Below the pieces are notes generated by a model. The model saw only the letters and a program-made list of their open reading frames with translations, ran no database searches and was not told the DNA's origin. The translations under genes were made by a program, and so were the position numbers. This document shows positions 1,223 to 50,997 of a DNA stretch of 64,000 nt, in pieces (position 1 is the stretch's first letter; the number at the start of each line of letters is the position of its first letter). The stretch comes from Alicyclobacillus pomorum DSM 14955 (lineage in GTDB: Bacteria > Bacillota > Bacilli > Alicyclobacillales > Alicyclobacillaceae): assembly GCF_000472905.1 (NCBI RefSeq), contig NZ_AXAR01000002.1, positions 124,001-188,000 of the forward strand, written 5' to 3'.

Positions 1223-2425
1223 CTAGAGTATTGATTTCGCCAGTTGAGCCAACTCGTCGCTCGTCACTTCGCGGACGCCGTCTCCGATGTCGGAGACGTA
1301 AAAGGACGGTGCCCATCCGGTTTGCTCTATGTACCGTTCTGCCACGACTTGCTCAAACACTGGTAACTGAGGCGCTTCCACAAAGCTCACAGTGCAGCCG
1401 CCGAATCCAGCGCCAGTCATTCTGGATCCGATACAGCCCTCGACAGTCCAAGCCGCCTCGACCAACGCGTCCAACTCCGGGCCGGTGACCTCGTAGTCAT
1501 CCCGAAGCGACCGGTGGGACTCGTTCATCAGCTCGCCAAACGCGCGCAAATTCCCCTGTTCCAGGAGGGTGGCGGCGCGCTGGGTCCGCGCGTTTTCAAA
1601 CACCACGTGGTGAGCCCGTTTCCTTAGTCTTTCATCGTCAATCACGGCGGACAGCCGCTCCCAATCCTCCACCGAGACGTCCGCCAGACACGTCAGGCTC
1701 GGGTTCGCCCGCTGCATCTGCGCCAGCGCGGCTTCGCATTCCTGGCGGCGTTCATTGTACTTGGAATCGGACAGGACGCGACGTTTGTTGGTGTTGGTGA
1801 TGACCAGTTTGTACCCAGGCGCTTGAACGGGCACCAGTCGGTAGTGGAGCGTGGCACACTGCAACAACAGCGCATGATCCGCCCTGCCCATGCCCACCGA
1901 GAACTGGTCCATGATGCCGCAGTTCACGCCGACGAATTGGTTCTCCGCTTCTTGCGACAGCAACGTCAATCGCTCGACGCTCAGCCCGGCACCGCTCAGT
2001 TCATTGATGGCGAACGCCGTCACCACTTCAATGGAAGCGGAGCTGGACAGCCCTGCGCCGTTGGGCAGGTTGCCGTGGTACAGGATGTCAGCACCAGGGA
2101 TGGATACGCCCGCTTTCTCCATCGCCCAGACCACGCCTTTCGGGTAATTGGCATAGTCGTCCTCCAGTTTATAGTTGAGATCACCCTTTTGCACAGTCAC
2201 AACCTGCGGGAATGCGGTGGAGGCAAAGCGGTACACGCCGTCTTCGCGCAGGCGCACGAAAGCCCACGTCCCCACGGTAAGGGCCGCAGGCAGCACGTAG
2301 CCCCCGTTGTAATCGGTGTGCTCTCCAATTAAATTCACACGCCCAGGCGCGAAGAACACGCGCACCTGCGAGACGTCCCCGGGCGAGAATGCCAAAAACC
2401 GTTGCCATATGTTTGCATCAGTCAC
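1223..2425 (-). CDS. galK: Galactokinase
   Basis: Phosphorylates galactose at C1 with ATP, the first Leloir step. The 400-residue GHMP kinase shows the galactokinase signature GRVNLIGEHTDYNGGYVLP near residue 30, the ATP loop PNGAGLSSSASIEV and the C-terminal motif GSRMTGAGFGGCTVS. The start is taken as GTG at 2425, which overlaps the galT stop by 8 bases and has GGGAG upstream; this gives the usual family length. The overlap suggests translational coupling to galT. Confidence 0.95.
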   Translation of the reverse strand: MTDANIWQRFLAFSPGDVSQVRVFFAPGRVNLIGEHTDYNGGYVLPAALTVGTWAFVRLREDGVYRFASTAFPQVVTVQKGDLNYKLEDDYANYPKGVVWAMEKAGVSIPGADILYHGNLPNGAGLSSSASIEVVTAFAINELSGAGLSVERLTLLSQEAENQFVGVNCGIMDQFSVGMGRADHALLLQCATLHYRLVPVQAPGYKLVITNTNKRRVLSDSKYNERRQECEAALAQMQRANPSLTCLADVSVEDWERLSAVIDDERLRKRAHHVVFENARTQRAATLLEQGNLRAFGELMNESHRSLRDDYEVTGPELDALVEAAWTVEGCIGSRMTGAGFGGCTVSFVEAPQLPVFEQVVAERYIEQTGWAPSFYVSDIGDGVREVTSDELAQLAKSIL

Positions 2426-3398
2426 CGTGCACCGCTCCCTTCGCACGCGCAATGGCCGCCCGCAACGCTTTCGCTGTGTCTTCGACCGCCGTCGGGTTGC
2501 ACGGCGCCCAGGCACCGGTCTCCGCGGAGGCCAGGAATTTGATTTTGTCCTTGGCGCGAAGCGGCGGGTAGAATTCGATGTGGAAATGGAAGTAGGTGCT
2601 CGTGTCCGGGCCGTTGACAGGGTCCTGGTGCAGCACCATCATATACGGGAATTCACGGTCAAACAGCGCGTCCATCCCCGCAGTCACTTGTTTGAGGATG
2701 TTGGCCAAATCATCCTTTTCGGCGTCGCTGAACGCTGCCAGACTACCCTTGTGCGATTTGCTGGAGATGAACGCCCCGTACGGGTAATCGGTGAAAAACG
2801 GAATATAACTCACGAAGTGCTCCGTCTCCAGAAGCACGCGTTCCTGAGACGTTTCCTCTTCGCGGTTGATGTCGCAAATCAAGCAGCGGCCGGTTTCTTT
2901 GTGATGCTCTCGGCAGGAATCCAACTCGGTGCGAATCTTGAGCGGGATGTACGGGAACGCGTAAATCTGGCCGTGTGGGTGCGGCATCGTGACGCCCACC
3001 TCCGGCCCGCGGTTTTCGAAAATCAATACGTACTTGTGCTCTGGATTCTTCGCCAACTCCACAAGCCGCTCTGTCCACAGATCGACGACTTTGCGAATGT
3101 GGGACACTGGCAACTGCGGGAGCGTTGCGTGGTGTTCCGGTGAATAGAGAATCACTTCGCACTTCCCGTACGCAGGGGCCACTTTGTACAGCTCCGTCGC
3201 AACCGGATCCGGTGTCGGCGGGTTCTGTGACAGCGCCGGGAAGTCGTTGTCGTACTTGTATACATCGTAATGATCCGGCACTTTGCCGGAACCTGGGCAA
3301 AACGGACAATCGTCTTTGGGCATGTTGGGGCGCTTCTGGCGATGGGAGGCGACCATCGTCCAGTCCCGCAGCAGAGGATTGTACCGCAGTTCTGACAT
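2418..3398 (-). CDS. galT: Galactose-1-phosphate uridylyltransferase
   Basis: Exchanges UMP between UDP-glucose and galactose-1-phosphate. The 326-residue protein is of the class I histidine-triad type, with the CPFCPGSGK zinc region near the start and the nucleophilic histidine in TMPHPHGQIYAFP. The ATG at 3398 follows GAGGGGTG. It is the first gene of the galTKE operon and sits about 85 bases behind a good sigma-A promoter at 3490-3518. Many Bacilli carry the unrelated class II GalT, so the class I enzyme is worth noting. Confidence 0.94.
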   Translation of the reverse strand: MSELRYNPLLRDWTMVASHRQKRPNMPKDDCPFCPGSGKVPDHYDVYKYDNDFPALSQNPPTPDPVATELYKVAPAYGKCEVILYSPEHHATLPQLPVSHIRKVVDLWTERLVELAKNPEHKYVLIFENRGPEVGVTMPHPHGQIYAFPYIPLKIRTELDSCREHHKETGRCLICDINREEETSQERVLLETEHFVSYIPFFTDYPYGAFISSKSHKGSLAAFSDAEKDDLANILKQVTAGMDALFDREFPYMMVLHQDPVNGPDTSTYFHFHIEFYPPLRAKDKIKFLASAETGAWAPCNPTAVEDTAKALRAAIARAKGAVHGD

Positions 3399-47747: not shown

Positions 47748-47960
47748 TTACGCTTGAGGAGACTTGATGCCGTACTTCTTGTTGAACCTGTCAACGCGGC
47801 CACCCACGTCAACCAGCTTTTGCTTGCCGGTGAAAAACGGATGGCACTTAGAACAAATTTCAACGCGAAGATTCTCTTTGACAGAGCCGGTTTCAAACGT
47901 CTCGCCGCAAGCGCAGGTGACTGTCGTCACATGGTACTCCGGATGAATGCCGGTCTTCAT
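47748..47960 (-). CDS. rpmE: 50S ribosomal protein L31 (zinc type)
   Basis: A 70-residue protein with four zinc-binding cysteines, C16 and C18 in TCACGETF and C36 and C39 in [10 protein letters not shown]. This is the C+ form; the zinc-independent paralogue is not in the window. ATG at 47960 has GAGGTG 8 bases upstream. It sits between rho and prfA, as in Bacillus subtilis. Confidence 0.96.
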
Positions 47961-48086
47961 GTCGTTTCACCTCGCTTTTGTATTCAACACACATAAGACA
48001 CTGTTGCTCATTATATCACGCAACTCCGACGTTGTCACCCATCGGGAACGAGCAGACGCCAATAAACGAATGGTAAATTATATTTC

Positions 48087-48118
48087 ATTTTGCAAATCGT
48101 GATACACGAATGAACAAT
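48087..48118 (+). promoter_or_regulatory. Predicted promoter of the secreted-peptide gene, containing the 13-base repeat (copy 3)
   Basis: ATTTTGCAAATCG (48087-48099) contains TTGCAA (48090-48095) as a -35 box; AACAAT (48113-48118) follows after exactly 17 bases. The expected start is near 48125. A perfect Spo0A box, TTGTCGAA (48135-48142), lies just downstream of it. The same repeat and the same 17-base spacing occur at the gal promoter. Confidence 0.45.
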
Positions 48119-48225
48119 ATTTTTCCATATTTGATTGTCGAATCCCATGGTCGTCCGTAGGATCAGGATGTACCTCACATCAAGTGTTTGCCAAAACCTG
48201 AATGACGATGTAAGGAGGGGTTCGC

Positions 48226-48354
48226 ATGAAGAAGGCGCTGAGCGTGCTGACGGTGTGTATCAGTCTGTTTGTTGGAACGGCTTCCGCGTTCGCAAGTCCG
48301 CTGGAGTTGCCGGGCTTCCACGAAGACGCCATTCACACCATCGTGGCCCAGTAA
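48226..48354 (+). CDS. Short secreted peptide (42-residue precursor), possible signalling peptide
   Basis: ATG at 48226 has a full AAGGAGG site 7 bases upstream. The precursor has a basic start (MKK), a hydrophobic core (ALSVLTVCISLFVGTASAFA) and an AFA signal-peptidase site after residue 23, leaving a 19-residue mature peptide, SPLELPGFHEDAIHTIVAQ. Size, export signal and tail length resemble Phr-type precursors of Bacilli, but no rap-like receptor gene is nearby and no family was recognised. It is convergent with a radical SAM gene. A promoter overlapping a repeated motif and a Spo0A box lie upstream. Confidence 0.65.
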   Translation: MKKALSVLTVCISLFVGTASAFASPLELPGFHEDAIHTIVAQ

Positions 48355-48371: not shown

Positions 48372-48406
48372 ACACAGGCGGGACGCCGGCAGGGTTCCGC
48401 CTGTGT
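48372..48406. terminator. Bidirectional hairpin between the peptide gene and the radical SAM gene
   Basis: A perfect 10-bp stem, ACACAGGCGG (48372-48381) and CCGCCTGTGT (48397-48406), placed between two convergent genes and touching the radical SAM stop codon. T runs are poor on both sides, so termination may be partial. Confidence 0.5.
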
Positions 48407-49674
48407 TACACTCGCCTCTTTATCGGCGGTACGTGCGTGTAAGAACCCACTTCCAAGCCCGGACACTCTGCCCGAAAGATCTCAATGACAGTTTTCATGC
48501 CCAACAGTTCACCGCGCTGCGGCGGGATCTTCGACAAGTAGTACTCTGGGTCAATATTGAGGTTGCGCATCTGCACCAGTCGTACCCCGTTGTCTCTCAG
48601 GAAATCCACCATCGCCTCTACCTCTTCTTCACGGTCCGTGACACCTGGAAACACGAGGTAATTGATGGAGGTGTACACCCCTTTGTCCGCAGCGTAGCGC
48701 AGGGTGGCTGCAACATTCTTCACGCCGTACCCACGCGGCTGATAGTAGGCGTTGTAGTGGTCGTCCAAGGCGCTGATGGTGCTCACGCGCATGAGATCCA
48801 GGCCAGCGTCCACAATGGTTTGAAGCGGCCGGGTCAATCCCCCGTTGGTATTGATGTTGATGTATCCGTCTGCCGTTTGCTCGCGTACCCTCCGAATGGC
48901 CTGCACAATGTCCGGCCAACGCGTGGCGGGCTCACCTTCACATCCTTGCCCGAAACTGACAATGCCCTCGGGGTTGCTGCGGATGTGCGTCAGCATGACG
49001 TCCACCAGTTCGTCGACGGTCGGCCGAAACTTTAGCCGCACCTGTGGAGATGGAAACGGAGCGTCGTCCGGCTGTTCCGAAATGCACCCTACACACGCCG
49101 CGTTACAGGTGGAGGAGATTGGCAAAGCGCCTTCCAGTCGCCCCAGAAACGTATTCTTTGCGGTAAGGCAACCATACGTCAGTGCGCAGTGTGACAGGTG
49201 CTCGTAAAGTCGGTTGTCAGGGTGTGCTGACAACATGCGCTCGACGGCCAGCTCCACTTCACCCTCGCCGATGGCCGAAGGATCCCACAGATCCGGATTA
49301 TCGGTCGCATCTGCAGCAACCACAAACTGCCCATCCAGCCAACCGACAGCAGTATATCCGAACAAAGGCAATGTCTCGGCGTCTTTCCCGCGCTTCACGT
49401 ACCCTGGGAGGTACAGTCGAGTGAATCCCTGTGGCAACAACGCGCCGACCGCGAAAGCGCGGTCGCTGAGCTTTTTCATTTGTCCAGTCTCCGGATCCAC
49501 GCCAATCACGTGGGTTCCAGGCAACCATGCCAGTGTTGCGCCTTTCGGAAGCGGAATCCACTCCGACGGCTCGATGTCGGTCAGAAAGCTGCCGGTCCGA
49601 CCTGTTGGCAGGTAAACATCGTGGTTCATGACTTCCCCGCGGTCATTGGCGTATACGAGCACTGGTTGTTTCAC
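48406..49674 (-). CDS. Radical SAM protein of unknown function
   Basis: A 422-residue protein. The first 185 or so residues show no recognised motif. The radical SAM cluster motif is C190xxxC194xxC197 (TCNAACVGCIS), followed by FGQGCEGEPATR and YININTNGGLTRPLQTIVDAG as in the TIM-barrel core. No SPASM or other extra cluster domain is visible at the C terminus. GTG at 49674 has GAGAGG about 8 bases upstream. It lies downstream of rho, and convergent with the short secreted-peptide gene. Its substrate is unknown. Confidence 0.82.
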   Translation of the reverse strand: MKQPVLVYANDRGEVMNHDVYLPTGRTGSFLTDIEPSEWIPLPKGATLAWLPGTHVIGVDPETGQMKKLSDRAFAVGALLPQGFTRLYLPGYVKRGKDAETLPLFGYTAVGWLDGQFVVAADATDNPDLWDPSAIGEGEVELAVERMLSAHPDNRLYEHLSHCALTYGCLTAKNTFLGRLEGALPISSTCNAACVGCISEQPDDAPFPSPQVRLKFRPTVDELVDVMLTHIRSNPEGIVSFGQGCEGEPATRWPDIVQAIRRVREQTADGYININTNGGLTRPLQTIVDAGLDLMRVSTISALDDHYNAYYQPRGYGVKNVAATLRYAADKGVYTSINYLVFPGVTDREEEVEAMVDFLRDNGVRLVQMRNLNIDPEYYLSKIPPQRGELLGMKTVIEIFRAECPGLEVGSYTHVPPIKRRV

Positions 49675-49705
49675 AGAATAACCTCTCTCTGATAGCACTC
49701 CAACC

Positions 49706-49740
49706 AAAACCAGAAGACTCCGTCGGCACACCGCCGACGC
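49706..49740 (-). terminator. Possible terminator after rho
   Basis: On the minus strand CGTCGGC and GCCGACG form a 7-bp stem with a 5-base loop right after the rho stop; TTTT comes only 13 bases later. Readthrough into the radical SAM gene is plausible. Confidence 0.4.
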
Positions 49741-49743
49741 GTG

Positions 49744-50997
49744 TTACGCTTTCTTCTCCTTTTGCAGTTCCAGCCCTTGGAGGAATTCTTCGTTGGTCTT
49801 GTAGTGCTTGAACTTGCGGATGAACAATTCCGTAAAGTCCTGATTGTCCCCCATCGACTTGCGGATAGCCCATATCTTTTCGAGCGTTTCCTTCGGCAAC
49901 AGTAACTCTTCACGGCGCGTGCCGGAGCGTCGAATGTCGAGCGCAGGAAATATGCGCTTCTCGGCAAGCCGCCGATCCAAGTGCAGTTCCAAGTTGCCGG
50001 TCCCTTTAAACTCTTCGTAAATGACGTCGTCCATACGTGACCCAGTGTCAATCAAGGCTGTGGCGAGAATGGTCAGGCTACCGCCTTCCTCCACGTTGCG
50101 TGCAGCGCCAAAGAAGCGCTTCGGTCGATGGAACGCGGCCGGATCAATACCCCCTGACAGTGTGCGGCCACTCGGCGGCACCACGAGGTTGTACGCACGT
50201 GCCAAACGCGTGATACTGTCGAGCAAAATGACGACGTCCTTTTTGTGTTCAACCAGGCGCAACGCGCGTTCCAGCACCAGTTCCGCCACTTTAATATGGT
50301 TTTCCGGTACTTCGTCAAACGTGGAAGCGATGACTTCCCCTTTCACGGACCGTTGCATGTCAGTGACTTCTTCCGGCCGTTCGTCAATCAACAGCACCAG
50401 CAGCGTCGCATCCGGGTAGTTCGTCGCCACACTGTGTGCGATTTCCTTCAACAGCAGCGTTTTTCCGGCCTTCGGCGGCGCCACAATCAAACCGCGTTGG
50501 CCAAAGCCGACGGGCGCAAACAAATCAATAATGCGCGTTGCAATTCGATCCGGTGTGGTTTCCAATTCCATTCGTTTCTGAGGAAACAGTGGAGTGAGGG
50601 CTGGGAAGTGAAGTCTTTCTGCAGCGAGGTTCGGACTGACTCCGTTGACCGCTTCGACATGCAGGAGCCCGAAGTACCGCTCATTTTCCTTTGGCGGTCT
50701 CACTTTCCCGGAGACCAAATCCCCCGTTCGAAGGTCAAACCTTCGTATCTGTGATGCGGCGACGTAGATGTCTTCCGCGCTTGGCAGGTATCCGACCGGT
50801 CGCAAGAACCCGTATCCGTCCTGCATGATTTCAAGTACGCCTTCAGCGAACATCAAGCCATCTTTCTCAGCCTGCGCTTTTAATATCGCGAAAATTAGTT
50901 CCTTTTTCTTCATGTTCCCGTAATAGGGGATCTGGAACTCCTTCGCATACTGGTACAGCTCTGTAAGCTTTTTCGATTCTAATTCATGAATATCCAA
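49744..50997 (-). CDS. rho: Transcription termination factor Rho
   Basis: A hexameric RNA-dependent ATPase, 417 residues. It shows the N-terminal RNA domain ([23 protein letters not shown]), Walker [17 protein letters not shown], Walker [18 protein letters not shown] and the Q-loop region [20 protein letters not shown]. The start is TTG at 50997, with GGGGG 7 bases upstream. An extended -10 promoter lies about 55 bases before it. Confidence 0.96.

Follow-up and report, generated by a model that had tools for sequence, protein, structure and literature searches.

On the evidence of its sequence, the open reading frame (ORF) of 42 codons between rpmE and a radical-SAM protein gene in the window (the whole 64,000-nucleotide stretch of Alicyclobacillus pomorum DSM 14955 analysed here) is a genuine gene and encodes an exported pro-peptide, with export and cleavage after an AFA motif both predicted. 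Judging by layout and position, it is a member of a rapidly evolving exported-peptide family whose genes occupy a single chromosomal site across many spore-formers of the Alicyclobacillus type, and in the relatives this family is under protein-level purifying selection. By analogy with known propeptides we favour, on balance, the reading that the product is an orphan exported propeptide that acts as a cell–cell signal.

The gene and its product

As read from the ORF and its translation, the product is MKKALSVLTVCISLFVGTASAFASPLELPGFHEDAIHTIVAQ, in which a basic N-terminus is followed by a hydrophobic core and the AFA site. The tail beyond this site is acidic (E, E, D), and neither lysine nor arginine occurs in it. 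The first-pass annotation had described a 42-residue secreted peptide, and each element that it named, namely the ribosome-binding site, the ATG frame, the signal peptide, the AFA site and the acidic tail of 19 residues, is present (Table 1). Signal peptides, in the window gene as in the relatives, were called by a simple hydrophobicity rule and not by SignalP.

Table 1. Features of the peptide locus; positions are those of the window unless a locus handle is given
Feature	Position	Strand	Basis or remark
Secreted peptide precursor gene, 42 aa	48226..48354, including stop	+	Sequence and family conservation
Ribosome-binding site AAGGAGGGG	48212..48220	+	Sequence
Predicted signal peptide, residues 1-23, ending AFA	48226..48294	+	Sequence; relatives with like layout; cleavage predicted from the motif
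Predicted exported tail, 19 residues, SPLELPGFHEDAIHTIVAQ	48295..48351	+	Sequence
Block LELPGFH	48301..48321	+	Aligns in relatives with blocks like VEWPDWL / LEWPEWL
rpmE (presumed; ribosomal protein L31), left neighbour	47748..47960	-	ORF; homologues in relatives
Radical-SAM protein gene, right neighbour, convergent with the peptide gene	48406..49731	-	Domain and homology searches
rho (presumed), anchor gene of the locus	49744..50997	-	ORF; rho search in relatives
Hairpin with 10-bp perfect arms, between convergent ends	48372..48406		Fold z -3.95 (+), -3.64 (-)
Promoter-like site GTGACA-17-TATAAT, divergent from the peptide gene	48010..48038	-	Scan, 11/12 matches
Spo0A-box-like TTGTCGAA, considered chance	48135..48142	+	Window count and relatives
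Palindrome ATCCAAGAGCTCTTGGAT	L155:3534-3551, L157:3550-3567, L156:121-138, L153:3445-3462		18 bp, upstream of the peptide gene

Neighbourhood and control of the gene

The peptide gene points away from what we take to be rpmE and towards the radical-SAM gene, which directly follows what we take to be rho; both names come from knowledge of the protein families. Between the convergent ends lies a hairpin, without a clear T-run, that is likely to be a terminator common to the peptide and radical-SAM genes; a terminator scan of the locus lists none at this position. The possibility of a leader peptide or attenuator was dropped because the downstream gene is convergent, and a search for structured RNA upstream using Rfam at gathering thresholds returns nothing, either for the window or for 20 stretches from rho loci.

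A plus-strand promoter had been placed at 48087-48118, but the promoter scan lists no plus-strand site; read as TTGCAA-17-AACAAT, this stretch has four of six matches per hexamer and falls below the scan threshold. The minus-strand promoter-like site presumably serves rpmE. The Spo0A-like box reported downstream of that supposed promoter is indeed present; its exact copies in the window number five, not four as had been counted, where 2.9 would be expected, and 16 shuffles out of 100 contain that many. Among the 25 relatives, none has the box in the stretch of up to 300 bp read upstream of the peptide gene. With window copies at chance level and the box missing from the relatives, the suggested link to Spo0A is unsupported; a conserved box at the promoter, which we looked for as the mark of the Spo0A regulon, is lacking, and the box was rejected as evidence for control by Spo0A.

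A different element precedes the gene in one group of relatives. All six genomes of this group (G003, G004, G010, G012, G014 and G016) have a perfect palindrome at a distance of 45-133 bp upstream of the start codon; it spans 18 bp in five of them, with the sequence of Table 1 in four and a compensated variant, TTCCAAGGGCCCTTGGAA, in G010, and is a 16-bp core in G012. The palindrome does not occur in the window. Its compensating changes in G010 suggest control by a dimeric regulator at an operator, or alternatively an RNA hairpin.

A peptide family at the rho locus

The sample comprises 41 genomes of the window genome's family, which includes Alicyclobacillus (DNA of six genomes also occurs in named records, for example that of G029 in A. 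tolerans BL-1 and that of G027 in A. montanus). rho was found in 40, and its 3′ side was read in those 40. A gene for a signal-peptide-bearing product of 36-79 residues, on the strand opposite rho, is intact in 26 of the 40 (G000, G002-G004, G006-G014, G016, G020-G022, G024-G028, G030, G035, G036 and G040), reduced to a remnant in two (G023, G032) and unseen in twelve (G001, G005, G015, G017-G019, G029, G031, G033, G034, G037 and G038), of which three are not firm absences (the contig of G037 stops some 170 bp beyond the gene, rpmE is not reached in G034, and G031 is an incomplete genome). The tally of intact genes includes three weak calls: G002 lacks an ordinary start codon (CTG was assumed), G028 lacks a basic N-terminus, and G035 ends in GPDWQ only. 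Carriers place the gene either beside rho or beside the radical-SAM gene adjoining rho; rpmE does not appear within the stretch read in G014, G026 and G027. The sole other genome of the window genus, G001, has no peptide gene, and some 144 bp separate its rpmE from its radical-SAM gene.

Searched across the family as a single sequence, the window peptide returns one notable match (E 0.026), in G025 of another genus, with 54% identity over residues 1-24 and a position directly beside the same radical-SAM gene. At the rho/radical-SAM spot of relatives stand small ORFs led by ribosome-binding sites, with signal peptides and with related blocks at their ends. A six-member profile (A1) added rho-locus members in G020 (E 2.4e-8), G036 (5.9e-4) and G021 (1.3e-3), and also reached rho-locus members in genomes without the radical-SAM gene. 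An order-wide profile search of 59 genomes yields 22 matches with E values of 1e-9 or lower, every one of them at the family rho locus, with scores that are high by construction, as the same genomes supplied the profile; it missed G028 and G040 and matched G036 weakly (E 0.001). Paralogues elsewhere were rejected, as the weaker profile matches off the locus and in 18 sister-family genomes lie mostly inside long frames; three further weak matches (L203, L204 and L206) represent a separate locus, described below.

The family is not represented in the libraries searched. For its 26 members, neither Pfam nor NCBIfam yields a convincing match, the best weak ones being BRANT_His_rich in NCBIfam (E 4.4e-4, two members; cut-off not shown) and TrbC in Pfam (E 0.0059, two members), and the exact strings LPPWPDE, EWPDWL, PPWPDEWE and FLPDWPDD do not occur in the literature searched. 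The gene had been called unannotated; this description holds, with both libraries lacking a family that relatives keep in frame.

In a prfA tree, a single-gene tree with a midpoint root that covers 31 of the 40 genomes, carriers fall on both sides of the root, and the simplest account is therefore that the family's ancestor had the peptide gene and that it was lost several times; horizontal spread is also possible. The remnants and absences mark the gene as dispensable. At L007 and L169 (G023), the remnant keeps the ribosome-binding site and LKKILST, and the remainder is gone.

The conserved block and selection on the reading frame

What persists in the family is a short proline/aromatic/acidic block near the C-terminus, such as EWPDWL, HEPPDYYD or FLPPWPDEWE, while the linker and the rest of the tail drift. 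In one large genus the precursor ends include SFVFLPPWPDEWE, SFGFLPDWPDDDWE, NFGFLPEPDDD and NYAFKPVWDDEDE; blocks in other genomes read EWPDWL, VEWPPWMD, LEQPDWL and LEPPDD. Five genomes carry the block in duplicate, as two DLEWPEWL-like units in G020-G022, two HEPPDYYD in G026 and two KPPYYDE in G027. With a linker that drifts and a C-terminal block that is conserved and in some cases repeated, these proteins have the look of exported signalling precursors.

The window core, LELPGFH, is in alignment the most diverged of the EWPDWL-like cores. This divergence, the lack of the gene at the locus in the same-genus relative G001 and the remnants in G023 and G032 would fit a window copy that is a decaying relic of a family that is real elsewhere, a scenario compatible with signalling by the family; however, the start, ribosome-binding site, signal peptide and frame of the window copy are all intact, and we consider it rather improbable.

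Occurrence of the ORF at the rho locus is above chance. A mechanical screen of 28 gaps found an ORF with a ribosome-binding site and signal peptide on the peptide strand in 16 and on the other strand in two; the same screen on 100 dinucleotide-shuffle sets gave a mean of 2.1 of 28, with a largest value of 8. When the C-terminal motif was added, the count was 14 of 28, whereas the shuffles averaged 0.06 and never exceeded 1, a contrast that is not blind, as the motif was defined after inspection of the family. The screen covers 28 of the 40 loci with borders set by hand, and the border in G025 skips a transporter gene, so that a match there would not necessarily be the family member.

Nonsynonymous divergence is below synonymous divergence (pN < pS) in 25 of 25 within-clade comparisons, with pS/pN of, for example, 0.72/0.10, 0.42/0.07, 0.68/0.21, 0.44/0.11 and 0.50/0.16. 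In five pairs picked from the 25 computed, the synonymous excess has binomial p values of 5.8e-11, 1.5e-5, 1.1e-5, 9.9e-4 and 6.9e-5. It is important to point out that these figures describe the relatives' copies, the only same-genus relative of the window copy (G001) having no gene to compare. Conservation in relatives had been set as a check on the gene, and the outcome supports it: the frame is kept, pN lies below pS, and the family is present at the locus in 25 further genomes.

The radical-SAM neighbour

In the neighbouring radical-SAM protein, Radical_SAM is the one domain to exceed its Pfam cut-off, and NCBIfam matches all lie far below theirs. The N-terminal region is conserved in this protein family, which has relatives in Paenibacillus, Brevibacillus and Cohnella as well as in 13 of the 41 family genomes. 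The two genes adjoin convergently in the window, and seven of the 13 family genomes with the radical-SAM gene also have the peptide, as would be expected of a ribosomally made precursor that the neighbouring enzyme modifies. We nevertheless give this idea scarcely any credence. The enzyme has no match at E 1e-30 in 19 of the 26 peptide genomes, on which account an obligate partnership or maturase tie was rejected, and Radical_SAM is, as noted, the only domain above its cut-off. Furthermore, among 80 radical-SAM loci of named genomes, a family-like ORF occurs in two Alicyclobacillus loci and, doubtfully, in L105, and matches in six other loci look unlike the peptide family; this screen missed a known peptide member in L036. 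The L105 locus (Bacillota bacterium JA1.bin52) carries an ORF with a signal peptide, MKRNYMARVLGSIIAAGMVAGILSVIVVPNYLIMPPIGTVPPITTN, that runs towards the radical-SAM gene, and this ORF is possibly a distant member of the peptide family.

A candidate signal and its potential receptors

As a cell–cell signal, the precursor would be exported by Sec and cleaved after AFA, and extracellular proteases would trim the tail, leaving a short linear peptide from the region of LELPGFH or from the C-terminal end. This peptide would be perceived by the producer population, most likely through uptake via an oligopeptide permease and binding to an intracellular HTH-TPR regulator encoded elsewhere.

The first-pass annotation compared the precursor with the Phr kind. 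The size and layout of an exported signalling precursor stand: as in Rap-Phr systems, a small exported precursor has a signal peptide, a short tail and a presumed C-terminal active piece. The Phr label does not, and Phr identity was rejected: no Rap receptor is recognised next door, and RapH_N, the Rap N-terminal domain, is found in none of the 41 family genomes at E 0.01, with a B. subtilis control that does match. Phr pentapeptides commonly carry a basic residue, unlike the window tail. The cores of PapR and NprX are C-terminal and proline/aromatic/acidic, and these and other RRNPP propeptides seem to resemble the window precursor in combining a signal peptide with such a C-terminal peptide.

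The rho-locus family can be held against what defines RRNPP systems. A secreted propeptide of 10-100 residues with a Sec signal is present (42 residues; 36-79 in relatives), the conserved block is compatible with an active peptide of 5-10 residues after proteolysis, and the genome encodes HTH-TPR proteins of 250-500 residues (L242, L243 and L250). According to PMC11343458, RRNPP-type pheromones have 5-10 residues, usually lie C-terminally in an exported precursor, sometimes in one to four copies, and repeats inside Phr precursors are known; the short, sometimes repeated C-terminal block of the rho-locus family resembles such precursors. The simplest RRNPP systems, as described in PMC10075063, consist of adjacent receptor and propeptide genes, and the same source gives 10 biosynthetic gene clusters in Alicyclobacillaceae as possibly under an RRNPP system. 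These candidates come from the same bacterial family, but they are adjacent receptor–propeptide pairs, unlike the rho-locus peptide, which has no recognised receptor neighbour. That no receptor gene is adjacent in the window had already been stated, and the neighbours are indeed rpmE and a radical-SAM gene that gives no TPR match; in relatives, the neighbours recognised are those that tblastn identifies as rpmE, the radical-SAM gene and rho. Since RRNPP architecture is that of an adjacent pair and no TPR gene is recognised beside the peptide, it does not qualify as an RRNPP member. The RNPP_C domain is above its cut-off in one of the 41 family genomes.

The lack of a recognised receptor next door, together with an acidic, Trp/Pro-rich tail and fast sequence turnover, would also suit a non-signal extracellular role, be it as a small acidic protein that binds the cell surface, the wall or metal, or as a spore-envelope component. 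A short block that is conserved, and that five precursors contain as a repeating unit, suits a cut-out peptide better, and we regard such a role as unlikely, if quite conceivable. An antimicrobial or self-toxic peptide could likewise be small, exported and fast evolving, but this peptide is acidic rather than cationic, and no immunity or export gene is recognised among its window neighbours (rpmE, radical-SAM and rho), which makes this function very unlikely.

If the peptide is a signal, candidate receptors may be sought among the HTH-TPR proteins of the window genome. L242, L243 and L250 encode proteins of 422, 435 and 443 residues, with HTH_3 above its cut-off in all three and TPR above its cut-off only in L242; of 35 HTH_3 matches in the genome, five loci, chosen by frame length, were viewed, and four more long-frame loci below the cut-off were left out. 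The L242 gene (418-1683, minus strand) is divergent from spoIIAB (2200-2667, plus strand) and sigF (from 2682, plus strand), with what is presumably a spoIIAA-like frame between it and spoIIAB. In L243 TPR is below the cut-off, the best structure match is PlcR, over the HTH part, and the gene adjoins a DegV gene. A screen for adjacent peptides at L242 and L243 gave matches inside or opposite other frames, none of them plausible, which leaves both as candidate unlinked receptors for the rho-locus peptide. A new class of orphan pheromone, with its precursor at the rho-rpmE locus and an unlinked HTH-TPR regulator (candidate L242) as its reader, must be regarded as a long shot.

The third protein, L250 (1435-2763, plus strand), has HTH_3 and a weak TPR signal, and a divergent signal-peptide ORF led by a ribosome-binding site, MKWTKRVLGLVAFATLFATSFAVVAEAGIFIPTVPEPMVGYQTTHLP, lies near 1406 on the minus strand; the two are a candidate adjacent RRNPP pair.

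A separate locus with a cyclic di-GMP riboswitch

The weak order-wide profile matches led to a second peptide family. At 23 places in the family's genomes there is a close homologue (E 1e-60 or better) of a soluble HisKA_3/HATPase_c kinase of 227 residues. Just upstream of the kinase, 18 of the 23 have a gene for an exported peptide of 44-74 residues and five have none such; in all 18 (L203, L204, L206, L207-L211, L213, L215, L217, L219, L221-L225 and L227) the peptide gene is preceded by a c-di-GMP-I riboswitch aptamer whose score exceeds the gathering score. The peptides end in, for example, SPDGMVLIW, SPDTLVRPIWD, TPDSTLPIVVE or HDGFRLVVE, and pN is below pS in seven chosen pairs (p 0.04 to 2e-9). 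L228 has the same riboswitch–peptide arrangement with a more distant kinase, and at the nearest kinase of the window genome (E 3.9e-40) neither riboswitch nor peptide is seen. The locus looks like a c-di-GMP-gated peptide–kinase signalling unit, with a peptide gene that appears alike in layout to that at the rho locus, and it is possibly the more striking of the two findings.

Outlook

At the rho locus, a gene for a secreted peptide that is under selection and common throughout one bacterial family has been missed by the family libraries searched, and its defined C-terminal peptides (EWPDWL, FLPPWPDEWE) are available for synthesis and testing. If L242 were its receptor, the timing of the step that commits a cell to sporulation would fall to the peptide, and the idea of a tie to sporulation would be recovered by another route. 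If the peptide is a signal, propeptides need not adjoin their receptors and searches for adjacent pairs would miss such cases; it would also offer a way into how Alicyclobacillus-like bacteria, including spoilers of fruit juice, coordinate their behaviour.
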